Positions 7,064 to 22,177 of a stretch of 22,298 bases of DNA are shown piece after piece; position 1 is the first letter of the stretch, and each line of letters starts with the position of its first letter. Under the pieces are notes generated by a model. That model was given only the letters and a program-made list of their open reading frames with translations. It searched no databases and was not told where the DNA came from. The stretch is from IMG/VR virus record IMGVR_UViG_3300032087_005237, positions 1-22,298 of that record. The stretch is one strand, 5' to 3'. Made by a program: the position numbers and the translations under genes. The stretch is from a virus.

Positions 7064-7407
7064 TATTCAAGCTGCGCCAACCTCGCTAATGTATTAATAG
7101 CGCCTAGCGCCACATTTAAATTATTTGTGCGGCGCGCTTCCATTTGTACACTCGACGCTTGCTGCATGAGTTCAGCGGCAAATTGCTCACGATCAATTTC
7201 AAAATCTCGCTTTAACTGCTTCCTTACTTCCACTAGCAATTTATCAGTCGTGGACTCACTGAGATTCCAGGTTTGTGCCGCAAATCGGATGCAATCCGTT
7301 CTGGTGCCGCCATTGCGAATTAAGTTGAAAAGGCGGTTGACGCGATATTGCTTTTCAGCGGCTGAGGCCCTTGGTGCACTTTTTTTACCGTCCAGTCGTT
7401 TTGGCAT
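7063..7407 (-). CDS. terS: Terminase small subunit (likely)
   Basis: 114 residues, basic N-terminus, then a predicted helix-turn-helix (RVNRLFNLIRNGG...WNLSESTTDKLLVEV, about 22-62) and a helical C-terminus (REQFAAELMQQASSVQMEARR) of the sort that oligomerises in small terminases. It overlaps TerL by one base (TAATG) and is overlapped in the same way by the ABC-GNAT gene. Function would be recognition of the packaging site and control of TerL. The call depends strongly on position. Confidence 0.75.
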   Translation of the reverse strand: MPKRLDGKKSAPRASAAEKQYRVNRLFNLIRNGGTRTDCIRFAAQTWNLSESTTDKLLVEVRKQLKRDFEIDREQFAAELMQQASSVQMEARRTNNLNVALGAINTLARLAQLE

Positions 7408-8549
7408 TACTTAATTCCGAGTGCGGCAGCTGCTTCAGGATTACTTGGTCCACAATATCGAAAACTTGCTGTAATTCTATCAGTGGTTAATGCTTTTCTC
7501 CATTGCGTCATGGCCTGTGTTTTTGCTTTTGTGTTGCGACGTTGCCGTTGATCGCAGTTATTTTTCGGTTTTCTTGTCATGTTCCAAAGCGGTGATTTTG
7601 CACGATAGGCAACCATTGCCGGGTTAGCTGTTACTGATAAATAATATCGCCCCCTAGTGCCATGAAAACAAGAGGCAATAAAGTTCGACATTGCATTTCC
7701 AATGCCGACCCCTTGAAAGTCAGGATGACACACGGTTCTGTGCTCTTTCCAGCGTGTACCTTGTGGACACGGCATGGTAAGCACGGCAGTAAAGGCAATT
7801 GGACGGCCATTGTAAAAACCGCAAAAGCATTTTGCGCCATTATGGATGTCGTGACTCAAATAGTGAAATTTACTAAAGAGCGGCCAATATTTTTTGCCCG
7901 ATACGGATTGAACGTCGATAGTAATTTGAGGTCGTTGAAGACAGTCCCGCGCAAAGCGGGAGGTAGATGGATCGAAAACCCAATCTGGTTGTAGCCATTC
8001 AAGAATGTCATAATGACAGGCGACAGCGACAAATTTCTGATTTCGTCTGCGAACAGCCTTTGCGATGGCCGCAGAACCTATTTGTGCAACTGTCCGATCA
8101 ACAACCGACGTAAATTCGTCAACGATAAGCAAATCAGGTGATTCGGCTAAGCCGCGTGCAATATTAACACGAAATTGCTCGCCATTGGACAATACATGAT
8201 GCGGTCTCAACCAGTTCGGGGGCGATGAAAACCCAACTGATGACAGGAGTCCAGTGATTTCTTTAATCGACATGGACTTTGGAAAAGAATCGACAATCGA
8301 TTTTTCTTGATCCCAACTCCACTGAGGATTAAATCGATCGCCAAATAGTTGACTAGCGATCGAAGTTTTACCTGAACCGGATGGACCAACAATAACACCG
8401 ACATTCCAGTCAAAATCTTCGATTGGGATGTCAACATTAAAACTGACTGTGGATTTAGGGTCTGGTGCAATGTCGAACAATCCCTCAAGTTGTGCAACTC
8501 TTGCAGTGCGTTTTATTTCGGATGTTTTTTTAAAATTAATTTTCGGCAT
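7407..8549 (-). CDS. ABC-type ATPase fused to a GNAT (Mom-like?) acyltransferase domain
   Basis: 380 residues from ATG 8549 (an in-frame TTG at 8555 would add two). Residues 1-205 form a soluble ABC ATPase: Walker A GPSGSGKT (55-62), signature LSNGEQ (120-125), Walker B DLLIVDE (139-145) and H-loop ACHYD (His179). There are no membrane segments, so it is not a transporter subunit. Residues 215-330 form a GNAT fold: strand segment KCFCGFYNGRPIAFTAVL and the acyl-CoA loop PDFQGVGIGNAM. An HY pair (229-230) before the first strand recalls the phage Mu Mom DNA-modification protein, from memory. The C-terminus is basic. The operon (ParB, this gene, TerS, TerL) suggests a DNA-directed role at packaging; enzymatic function is inferred. 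Confidence 0.78.
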   Translation of the reverse strand: MPKINFKKTSEIKRTARVAQLEGLFDIAPDPKSTVSFNVDIPIEDFDWNVGVIVGPSGSGKTSIASQLFGDRFNPQWSWDQEKSIVDSFPKSMSIKEITGLLSSVGFSSPPNWLRPHHVLSNGEQFRVNIARGLAESPDLLIVDEFTSVVDRTVAQIGSAAIAKAVRRRNQKFVAVACHYDILEWLQPDWVFDPSTSRFARDCLQRPQITIDVQSVSGKKYWPLFSKFHYLSHDIHNGAKCFCGFYNGRPIAFTAVLTMPCPQGTRWKEHRTVCHPDFQGVGIGNAMSNFIASCFHGTRGRYYLSVTANPAMVAYRAKSPLWNMTRKPKNNCDQRQRRNTKAKTQAMTQWRKALTTDRITASFRYCGPSNPEAAAALGIK

Positions 8550-8551
8550 AA

Positions 8552-9121
8552 TCAAGCATTCATGGCTTTACAGTCGAGCCCTTGGCCCAAAAGATAGTCC
8601 AAAGTCGCTGTTTGTTCTTCTTCATTTCGGCAATTTACGATAATTTGAAAAACTGCGTCGATTTTGTCTGACTGATCTTCAGTCGGGTCATCAGGGTCAA
8701 ATTCATCATCTTTGGCGAGCAACTCATTTATATCATCCTCCGAAAACCAAGGTGTCACATCATGTTCGGCTGCGAGTGATTGTAGCATTTGTGCATCCCA
8801 CTCGGCTAAGTCTGAAGTGCGGTTATCTGCCAAGGCGAGACCGATCTTGTCTGCATCGGACAAACCAGACCGTTTTACGGCAATAATTTCATCGCCATCG
8901 GTTTCAATAATGCGGACTCGATTTATGCCTTGAGCGGCTGCGGCTTCAACTGTACCGTTGCCGGCTAAAATTGTATTCGACTCGTCAATAACAATAGATC
9001 GAGCTGCGCCAAAAGATTTAATCGATTCCTGAAGAAGCGCCTTCGATTGAGCTGTGCGTTTTCTGGCGTTTCTTGGATCAGCAACCAAGTCGTTTATATT
9101 ATTGGTAGAACTGGCGGTCAT
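8552..9121 (-). CDS. ParB/sulfiredoxin-like nuclease-fold protein
   Basis: 189 residues from ATG 9121. The N-terminal 110 residues follow the phage ParB-like pattern: NDLVADPRNARK (10-21), LLQESIKSFGAARSIVIDE (29-47), ILAGNGTVEAA (51-61) and DKIGLALADNRTSDLAEWD (91-109). The C-terminus is acidic (DDEFDPDDPTEDQSD). Upstream in-frame ATGs at 9154 and 9187 are rejected because a good promoter (9145-9173) would start transcription near 9138. ParB-fold proteins of this kind in phages are often linked to DNA methylases or packaging genes; some are NTPases or DNA-binding, some nucleases. It ends two bases before the ABC-GNAT start. Confidence 0.85.
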   Translation of the reverse strand: MTASSTNNINDLVADPRNARKRTAQSKALLQESIKSFGAARSIVIDESNTILAGNGTVEAAAAQGINRVRIIETDGDEIIAVKRSGLSDADKIGLALADNRTSDLAEWDAQMLQSLAAEHDVTPWFSEDDINELLAKDDEFDPDDPTEDQSDKIDAVFQIIVNCRNEEEQTATLDYLLGQGLDCKAMNA

Positions 9122-9144
9122 GCACGATTGATTTAACTGAAAGT

Positions 9145-9173
9145 ACGATAACATATTTTTTTTATGCTGGCAA
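9145..9173 (-). promoter_or_regulatory. Promoter of the ParB/ABC-GNAT/terminase operon
   Basis: TTGCCA (9173-9168), 17-base spacer containing an A8 tract, TATCGT (9150-9145). This matches sigma70 at 5/6 and 4/6. The expected start is near 9138, about 17 bases before the ATG at 9121. It lies between the terminator at 9301-9327 and the first gene of the operon, which is where a promoter is required. Confidence 0.6.
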
Positions 9174-9194
9174 GCTTCATGATGCATAGTTCAT
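9174..9194 (+). repeat. Direct repeat A, copy 1
   Basis: A 21-base sequence (starts GCTTCATGATG, ends AGTTCAT) found again without mismatch at 10199-10219 in the same orientation. On the minus strand it abuts the -35 of the ParB-operon promoter, so it may be an activator or operator site. Confidence 0.8.
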
Positions 9195-20845: not shown

Positions 20846-21571
20846 CTAATCCTTAATTATTTGACAGGCTTTTTTGTAGTAATGCAGTCTGTCTTCGATG
20901 CCATTATATCCGCCATTTAATACTCTTGTAACTTGATAAACATCTTCTGTTTTGCATACTTCCGCCCATCGATTTTCTTCAATCCAGCAAACTGCTGACA
21001 AAAATGGGTAAGTGTCGGCAATGTACTTTGCACCGATCTCTAGAACCTTGTCATCACGCATTCCGTTACGTTCCAGCCAAGTACTAAACCTTGTAACGTT
21101 TGCACGGCCAGTCAGCATAATCACGCCAGCACCTTTAAACTTTACGCCATCACCTGGAAAAACATTTCCCAAATCGCTGCGACCTTCATACGCTTTGCCA
21201 GTTGCCAACTCAAGCAGCCAGCGATAACGACCAGTTTCATGGCACGTTTGGGAAATCAAATGACGGCGCTGGTTCAAGCTCGTCATGTCTGTGACACGCA
21301 CCAGCATGTTCAGATCATTCATGAACTTATCGTCAAAATCTGACGGCTTCCAGCCTGAGATTTCGGCAACTTGCTCGCAGGTGATAAGCCATTTTTGTGG
21401 TGGTGGCGCTACCGCAGATGTCCAAGTGTTATACCAGGCAGTTCCTTTCGTGAGGATGTAAGGATCTAGCGCGTTGATCTCGTCCTCTAGTTCGTGGATT
21501 GCAGCAGTTTGATGCCCGAGTTTTTTGTAATACTTGAACAAGTCAAGCAGTCTGATCGGTTTCTTGCTCAT
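20846..21571 (-). CDS. GH19 (chitinase-like) endolysin
   Basis: 241 residues from ATG 21571. An N-terminal segment (IRLLDLFKYYKKLGHQTAAI ... LDPYILTKGTAWYNTW, about 1-50) resembles a helical domain on other phage lysins. The GH19-type catalytic domain follows: RHLISQTCHETGRYRWLLEL (103-122, candidate catalytic Glu112), YEGRSDLGNVFPGDGVKFKG (128-147), AGVIMLTGRANVTRF (148-162) and VTRVLNGGYNGIEDR (214-228). It would cut peptidoglycan at lysis. No signal peptide, so it needs a holin, and small membrane proteins lie directly upstream. Confidence 0.85.
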   Translation of the reverse strand: MSKKPIRLLDLFKYYKKLGHQTAAIHELEDEINALDPYILTKGTAWYNTWTSAVAPPPQKWLITCEQVAEISGWKPSDFDDKFMNDLNMLVRVTDMTSLNQRRHLISQTCHETGRYRWLLELATGKAYEGRSDLGNVFPGDGVKFKGAGVIMLTGRANVTRFSTWLERNGMRDDKVLEIGAKYIADTYPFLSAVCWIEENRWAEVCKTEDVYQVTRVLNGGYNGIEDRLHYYKKACQIIKD

Positions 21572-21824
21572 CAGCCCATTCGTAATAGATGGAGATTGGC
21601 CCGCCAAGAGGCGTTGTTCCTGGGTCGCTGCTTTCTACAACCACGGTGCGCGGCGCAGTGTCTGGCTGGCTATTGTGCCAACCCTCAATTTCAACGTCCA
21701 AGCGAGGTTTAAGCGTCGCATTGAACTTAAAATTTCGTGACGCTTCTTTTAGGTGGTCCGTCCAGTGTTTGTCACCAAAACGCACCACCCATTTGATGTC
21801 GTCTGGGACGCCGATTACTTTTTT
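21543..21824 (-). CDS. -1 frame extension of the 45-residue membrane gene (probable frameshift product)
   Basis: Reading in the -1 frame from the A-AAA-AAG heptamer (21824-21818) gives KK-VIGVPDDIKW-VVRFGDKHWTDHLKE and continues through ATLKPRLDVEIEGWHNSQPD to ISIYYEWADEQETDQTA. There is no ATG; only tandem GTGs at 21788 and 21785. The ten residues before the first GTG look like protein (VPDDIKW), supporting entry by frameshift rather than initiation. The product would be about 136 residues with the membrane segment at the front. No domain recognised. Alternatively it starts at GTG 21788 (81 residues), or the A6 run contains a sequencing error. Confidence 0.55.
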   Translation of the reverse strand, partial: KKVIGVPDDIKWVVRFGDKHWTDHLKEASRNFKFNATLKPRLDVEIEGWHNSQPDTAPRTVVVESSDPGTTPLGGPISIYYEWADEQETDQTA

Positions 21825-21834
21825 GGGAACACCC
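21815..21834 (-). promoter_or_regulatory. Candidate -1 ribosomal frameshift signal
   Basis: Minus strand: AGGGTG (Shine-Dalgarno-like) five bases before the A-AAA-AAG heptamer, followed at once by TAA. The heptamer is in the zero frame in the right phase, and the -1 frame is open beyond it. It resembles the E. coli dnaX signal, where AGGGAG precedes the same heptamer. A short CGTC-CCA-GACG hairpin follows a few bases downstream; no strong one. Confidence 0.6.
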
Positions 21835-21952
21835 TGAGCAGCACTTCCATCACGATTTGAATGATGCTGTTGCTGCGAAGTGGTGACAGAGCAATGATTT
21901 CAGATGCAGCGGCCAAGGCCACGCTGATCATTGCGATTGTTGCGGGATCCAT
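21815..21952 (-). CDS. Small membrane protein, 45 residues (holin-like; frameshift donor)
   Basis: Start ATG 21952. Reads MDPATIAMISVALAAASEII, then ALSPLRSNSIIQIVMEVLLR and VFPKK, TAA. One or two hydrophobic helices, and it sits directly before the endolysin, so a holin or holin-partner role is plausible. Similar short proteins occur in cyanophages to my memory. The last codons are CCA AAA AAG TAA, which place an A-AAA-AAG slippery heptamer exactly before the stop. Confidence 0.6.
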   Translation of the reverse strand: MDPATIAMISVALAAASEIIALSPLRSNSIIQIVMEVLLRVFPKK

Positions 21953-21979: not shown

Positions 21980-22177
21980 CTAATGGTTCTTTTCCAAAAC
22001 CCTTAGGCGCAACTCATGATCGTCTAGTCGTTCTTTATGATCTGTTCGCAGAGCAACGATTTGCTCAAGGACGATTTCGACGCGGGCTTCAATGGTTGCG
22101 TGGCGTTTATCGAGTCGCCATAATGCACCAACGCCTGCTGAGATGATGACGGTTGCGATGCCGGAAAACAAGTCCAC
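21980..22177 (-). CDS. Membrane-anchored coiled-coil protein, 65 residues
   Basis: GTG start at 22177 with GGAG eight bases upstream. An N-terminal hydrophobic helix (LFSGIATVIISAGVGALW, 3-20) is followed by a charged coiled coil (RHATIEARVEIVLEQIVALR, HKERLDDHELRLRVLE). This shape is common for small lysis-region proteins (holin partner or spanin-like), and it precedes the other membrane gene and endolysin. The assignment is by shape and place only. Confidence 0.62.
   Translation of the reverse strand: MDLFSGIATVIISAGVGALWRLDKRHATIEARVEIVLEQIVALRTDHKERLDDHELRLRVLEKNH

Follow-up and report, generated by a model that had tools for sequence, protein, structure and literature searches.

In E. 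coli dnaX, the frameshift product is the shorter one, and the slippery site is accompanied by a close 3' stem-loop and by a Shine-Dalgarno (SD) element at about 10 nt. The S genes of lambda and phage 21 are dual-start holin/antiholin genes, the isoforms of which differ N-terminally by start choice. Programmed frameshifting in dsDNA phages, in the literature searched, concerns tail chaperones, tail tube and capsid proteins; for the tail assembly chaperone G/GT, PMC3483164, which cites Xu 2004, describes a main product that is short and a minor one that carries a C-terminal extension. Nothing on the junction gene analysed here came up when frameshifting was searched for together with holins, lysis or cyanophages in the literature covered, which included few subscription papers. 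The class of mechanism is already known, and the gene family and its setting in a lysis neighbourhood are new to that literature.

The window, which spans a 22,298-base virus record, carries a gene for a small membrane peptide and, overlapping its end, a second frame that leads up to an endolysin gene. A sequence-only reading had proposed that the two are joined by a programmed -1 frameshift, and all the local features it relied on (the ending of the peptide gene, the phase of the heptamer, the spacing of AGGGTG and a 91-codon -1 frame devoid of ATG) are present as described. The peptide gene starts with ATG at 21952 and runs for 45 codons on the minus strand to the terminus CCA AAA AAG TAA, with the stop codon at 21817-21815. 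Read from the heptamer, the -1 frame stays open over 91 codons up to the TGA at 21545-21543. GTG first appears in it at codon 11, and the ATG of the endolysin (21571) lies inside the 3' end of this frame. Taken with the homologues described below, these features very probably reflect a conserved programmed -1 ribosomal frameshift at the junction of peptide and extension, yielding two isoforms.

Table 1 Features at the junction in the window.
Feature	Coordinates	Strand	Remarks
Zero-frame gene, 45-aa membrane peptide MDPATIAMISVALAAASEIIALSPLRSNSIIQIVMEVLLRVFPKK	21815..21952	-	phrog_22542, E 1e-10
Slippery heptamer A_AAA_AAG	21818..21824	-	X_XXY_YYZ in zero-frame phase; abuts TAA
AGGGTG, SD-like, candidate stimulator	21830..21835	-	5 nt 5' of heptamer
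-1-frame extension VIGVPDDIKWVVRFGDKHW...TDQTA	21543..21818	-	91 codons + TGA; homologues, third-position substitutions
Endolysin (chitinase-like)	20846..21571	-	phrog_181 endolysin, E 1e-27; phrog_14712 chitinase, E 6e-22
65-aa gene, N-terminal TM segment and coiled coil	21980..22177	-	upstream of peptide gene; possible lysis partner

For the peptide by itself, IMG/VR contigs contain more than 500 relatives, and relatives of the -1-frame product were found in the cyanophages KBS-S-2A, S-CBS1 and S-CBS3 and in many IMG/VR contigs. When both parts were profiled over all fetched loci to assign their relative frame, all 158 two-part loci, which correspond to 97 distinct junctions, had the second part in the -1 frame and never in frame 0 or +1; the peptide occurs without the extension in 45 loci. 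A_AAA_AAG or C_CCA_AAG lies 0-3 codons 5' of the zero-frame stop at 94 of the 97 distinct junctions, the remainder being one with C_CCA_AAA and two (L086 and L093) with a -1 frame and no good heptamer, and the heptamer of the isolate S-EIVl is G_GGA_AAG. A_AAA_AAG, C_CCA_AAG and G_GGA_AAG are all highly shift-prone in E. coli according to a review (PMC5009743). Among 2076 distinct ORF ends in the material analysed, 3 carry one of these heptamers 0-1 codons 5' of the stop, so that their presence at the family junctions is not attributable to chance. The alignment of homologues, in which heptamer and both frames are conserved, thus favours the frameshift that the sequence-only reading proposed. 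Peptide genes are also present on contigs binned as Planctomycetota, Hyphomonadaceae, Verrucomicrobiota and a Blastopirellula MAG (L200-L204), which are probably misbinned phage contigs or phages of other hosts.

The periodicity of substitutions switches frame exactly at the heptamer. Zero-frame third positions take 68% of the pairwise substitutions 5' of it, and on its 3' side -1-frame third positions take 55% directly after the heptamer and 60-62% thereafter, with a relative substitution rate of 0.011 per nt in the heptamer itself versus about 0.5 in its flanks. On comparison of sequences across the family, coding (purifying) selection acts in both frames, and the frameshift, its direction and its site are established at the same level. 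The codon that provides the first A of A_AAA_AAG can be CCA, CGA, AGA, GCA, AAA, CAA or GGA, spanning six amino acids with A always as final base, and the family alternates between A_AAA_AAG and C_CCA_AAG. Relatives devoid of both extension and heptamer offer a built-in natural control: their Phe-Pro-Lys is mostly encoded by TTC CCC AAG, CCT AAG or CCG AAG, and the Pro codon is CCA in 3 of 38 such genes compared with 61 of 62 genes with the extension (Fisher p 3e-22, computed ignoring relatedness), the background being 0.25-0.29. On the peptide tree, which was built on 46 columns and has many unresolved forks, the extension changes between present and absent about 4-6 times. By these codon comparisons, the heptamer is conserved beyond what the peptide sequence needs. 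In three relatives without the extension (L110, L087 and L090), C_CCA_AAG is kept three sense codons 5' of the stop, possibly as a remnant or a precursor of a frameshift site.

A sequencing error, an assembly error or a decayed gene might be suspected at a homopolymer, which is error-prone, in a metagenomic virus record such as the window. The same layout recurs, however, in dozens of independent contigs and in seven sequenced isolates (S-CBS1, S-CBS3, KBS-S-2A, S-EIVl, WH11-B, S-B28 and 7B11-B), which excludes an assembly error, and the purifying selection on both frames speaks against error and decay alike, leaving this explanation a negligible probability. Slippage of RNA polymerase on the A-run would likewise have a substrate in the window and in the part of the family with A6 to A9 runs, but it does not fit C_CCA_AAG, which has only three A and accounts for about half of the family, or the G_GGA_AAG of S-EIVl, and all members obey a codon-phased X_XXY_YYZ rule that transcript slippage does not need; we judge it highly improbable. 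The sequence-only reading had named a run length that fuses the frames as grounds for rejecting a frameshift, and among the homologues the length of the A-run never joins the two frames.

Another route to the second frame would be termination-reinitiation, in which ribosomes stop in the zero frame and restart in the -1 frame to make two separate proteins. Zero-frame stops do overlap the second frame, and the phages S-CRES1 and S-CRES3 encode the two parts as separate genes, each with its own ATG, but the position of the start is not conserved: the first ATG, GTG or TTG of the -1 frame may come as early as codon 2 or only after codon 70, and in L003, L009, L011, L012 and others it is at codon 40-71 or absent (as in L012). 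Because the first start codon often lies past the conserved W10, F14 and KFxATL core, a restart there would delete that core. Many relatives have no standard start codon ahead of the core, in line with the earlier remark that the -1 frame reads as protein before its first GTG. Reinitiation also leaves unexplained both the invariant heptamer and its synonymous loss from genes that lack the extension, and we consider it very unlikely. Homologues of the downstream frame with their own ATG, which the sequence-only reading would have held against a frameshift, occur in the distant S-CRES1 and S-CRES3 and leave it standing wherever the heptamer occurs. Programmed -1 frameshifting is the reading retained below, with transcript slippage, assembly error and reinitiation largely excluded. 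One contig stands apart: the junction of L093 reads CCG AAG AAG TGA, with a broken heptamer and a GTGA overlap that agrees with reinitiation, and restart may have taken the place of frameshifting there.

AGGGTG in the window could pair with the anti-SD at -6.4 kcal/mol, and the SD-like element claimed earlier is present, but its conservation in the family does not exceed the codon and amino-acid expectation: the family mean lies within a synonymous-codon null, in which 46 of 200 simulations are equally strong, and the gap relative to the control class vanishes under this null. As a conserved element of the family it was set aside; in the window it is a possible stimulator. Structure z-scores on the 3' side are unremarkable at the usual spacing of 5-9 nt and peak 30-90 nt 3' of the heptamer, and an RNA structure scan of the family found no conserved close 3' stem. 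A hairpin 33-62 nt 3' of the heptamer in the window's clade was set aside, as no pair is changed on both sides among 16 sequences.

Structure models (AF2) were computed from alignments with the rows from phage-collection records left out. The peptide is modelled as two helices (residues 3-22 and 30-41, pLDDT 82), of which the first is a single TM helix (hydrophobicity 2.03) and the second an amphipathic one. The window's peptide has a net charge of -1 before the TM segment and of +3 after it, and the family values are about -1 and +3.7; this split points to a likely N-out/C-in topology and hence to a cytoplasmic extension. Fold comparison of the peptide gave one weak match. The extension is modelled at moderate confidence (pLDDT 74) as a long helix (residues 19-49) and a two-stranded beta hairpin, and no match to it was found by Foldseek in PDB or viral-model libraries. 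Its conserved residues are W10, F14 and a KFxATLxPR core, and it shares a C-terminal LGGxMSIxAPW motif with the -1 extension of S-EIVl (HMM E 2e-10). In the T7-like phages WH11-B, S-B28 and 7B11-B, the same peptide and heptamer precede -1 extensions of only weak likeness (WSISLTSPW; E 1.6).

From these features we infer product ratio, topology and role as follows. Most ribosomes would terminate at TAA and release a 45-aa inner-membrane peptide, predicted to consist of one TM helix and a cationic amphipathic helix in N-out/C-in orientation, and a fraction would slip by -1 on A_AAA_AAG to make a form of about 136 aa with a 91-aa cytoplasmic extension. Frameshifting would in this way lend the anchor of the peptide to the domain, which would act tethered to the membrane, and the extended minority form may set the timing of lysis or couple to endolysin or membrane.

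The assignment to lysis comes from gene order. An endolysin homologous to that of the window lies 3' of the junction in 71 of the 86 loci whose sequence extends far enough, whereas several others have a neighbouring endolysin that is unrelated to it (phage lysozyme PF00959 or peptidase C39); directly 5' of the peptide, many loci carry homologues of the window's 65-aa gene, with TM segment and coiled coil, and a protein similar to this gene is weakly related to a hemolysin-type PHROG. As is looked for in a holin, the peptide is a small protein with one TM segment encoded beside an endolysin. In WH11-B, S-B28 and 7B11-B, its gene is located between the tail fibre and terminase small subunit genes, the slot of holin gene 17.5 in T7. 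The endolysin neighbour and this T7 holin-like slot favour a lysis role, with a holin-like short form and the extended form as its minority partner, which we hold with an evenly divided degree of belief. We put forward more tentatively that frameshifting fixes the ratio of the holin-like peptide to its partner with the cytoplasmic domain through two C-terminal isoforms, so that translation would set the timing of lysis.

A genuine frameshift serving another purpose, such as superinfection exclusion, virion assembly or takeover of the membrane, is a substantial though somewhat less probable alternative. It would accord with an extension that has no relative of known function, with the location away from lysis genes of the weakly related domains (phrog_6464) that stand alone in T4-like cyanophages, and with the scarcity of holin matches: the peptide has no curated holin match in Pfam or NCBIfam and one weak match to a PHROG holin (2 of 15 members, E 0.013). 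The constant adjacency to endolysins of unrelated types, the small, cationic, one-TM character of the peptide and its position in T7-like cyanophages argue against such a role and in favour of lysis.

Two side observations can be added. At L160:2995-3960, no stop closes the extension frame, which reads through into the endolysin in the same frame; should this be real, a membrane-tethered endolysin would be the product of frameshifting, a candidate that we rejected given the endolysin's own Met inside the frame and its occurrence in one contig. Elsewhere in the window, at 7407-8555 and 8552-9187 (both on the minus strand), an ORF that, judged by eye, resembles an ABC-type ATPase with an acetyltransferase-like region after it overlaps a ParB-like gene, and these could form a DNA-modification (Mom-like) pair.

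In the records of S-CBS1, S-CBS3 and KBS-S-2A, the second frame is unannotated or annotated from an internal start; public entries with this treatment are NC_016164 gp22/gp23 (L002), NC_015465 gp21/gp22 (L205), NC_020854 CPKG_00007 (L001) and KJ410740 (L206), and in the S-EIVl record the peptide gene itself is unannotated. The junction adds an unannotated frameshift family with many metagenomic members, several cultured hosts and a lysis neighbourhood, and supplies the correct protein for a half-gene now left unannotated or listed as a truncated hypothetical ORF. It also makes testable whether phage recoding sets the stoichiometry of membrane lysis proteins; if it does, the timing of lysis would be set by translation in a widespread group of cyanophages.

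Compared with described systems, the junction shares with dnaX the heptamer A_AAA_AAG and its codon phase, together with an SD-like element upstream in the window. By contrast, the shifted product of the cyanophage gene is the longer one, the gene encodes a phage membrane peptide, and the stimulator is only a candidate. The likeness to G/GT consists in a phage gene whose first frame ends in a slippery heptamer and which has a short main and an extended minor product; G/GT is cytosolic and precedes the tape measure gene, whereas here a TM peptide adjoins the endolysin and its gene follows the tail and tail-fibre genes rather than lying between the major tail and tape measure genes, and no sequence relation to G/GT was found. 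Among the PHROGs 22542 and 15106, the peptide is a member of PHROG 22542, listed as of unknown function; the extension lies outside Pfam, NCBIfam and, at a convincing E-value, any PHROG. Like lambda S and phage 21 S, the locus would provide two membrane isoforms that differ by an extension from one gene of a lysis cassette, but here the difference is predicted to be C-terminal and to arise by frameshifting, and the holin activity is putative. The closest arrangement is that of S-CRES1, in which a homologous peptide (gp105, E 7e-14) is followed by a related domain (gp104, E 1e-6), and of S-CRES3 (gp116/gp115), arranged alike, with E 1e-10 for the peptide and only 0.3 for the domain. Both lack the heptamer, and in both the separately encoded domain begins with a hydrophobic helix, which makes it reasonable to suppose that the domain acts at the membrane; the fusion is thus not universal, and, if our reading is true, these sister lineages with separate genes would show the origin of a fusion by frameshift.
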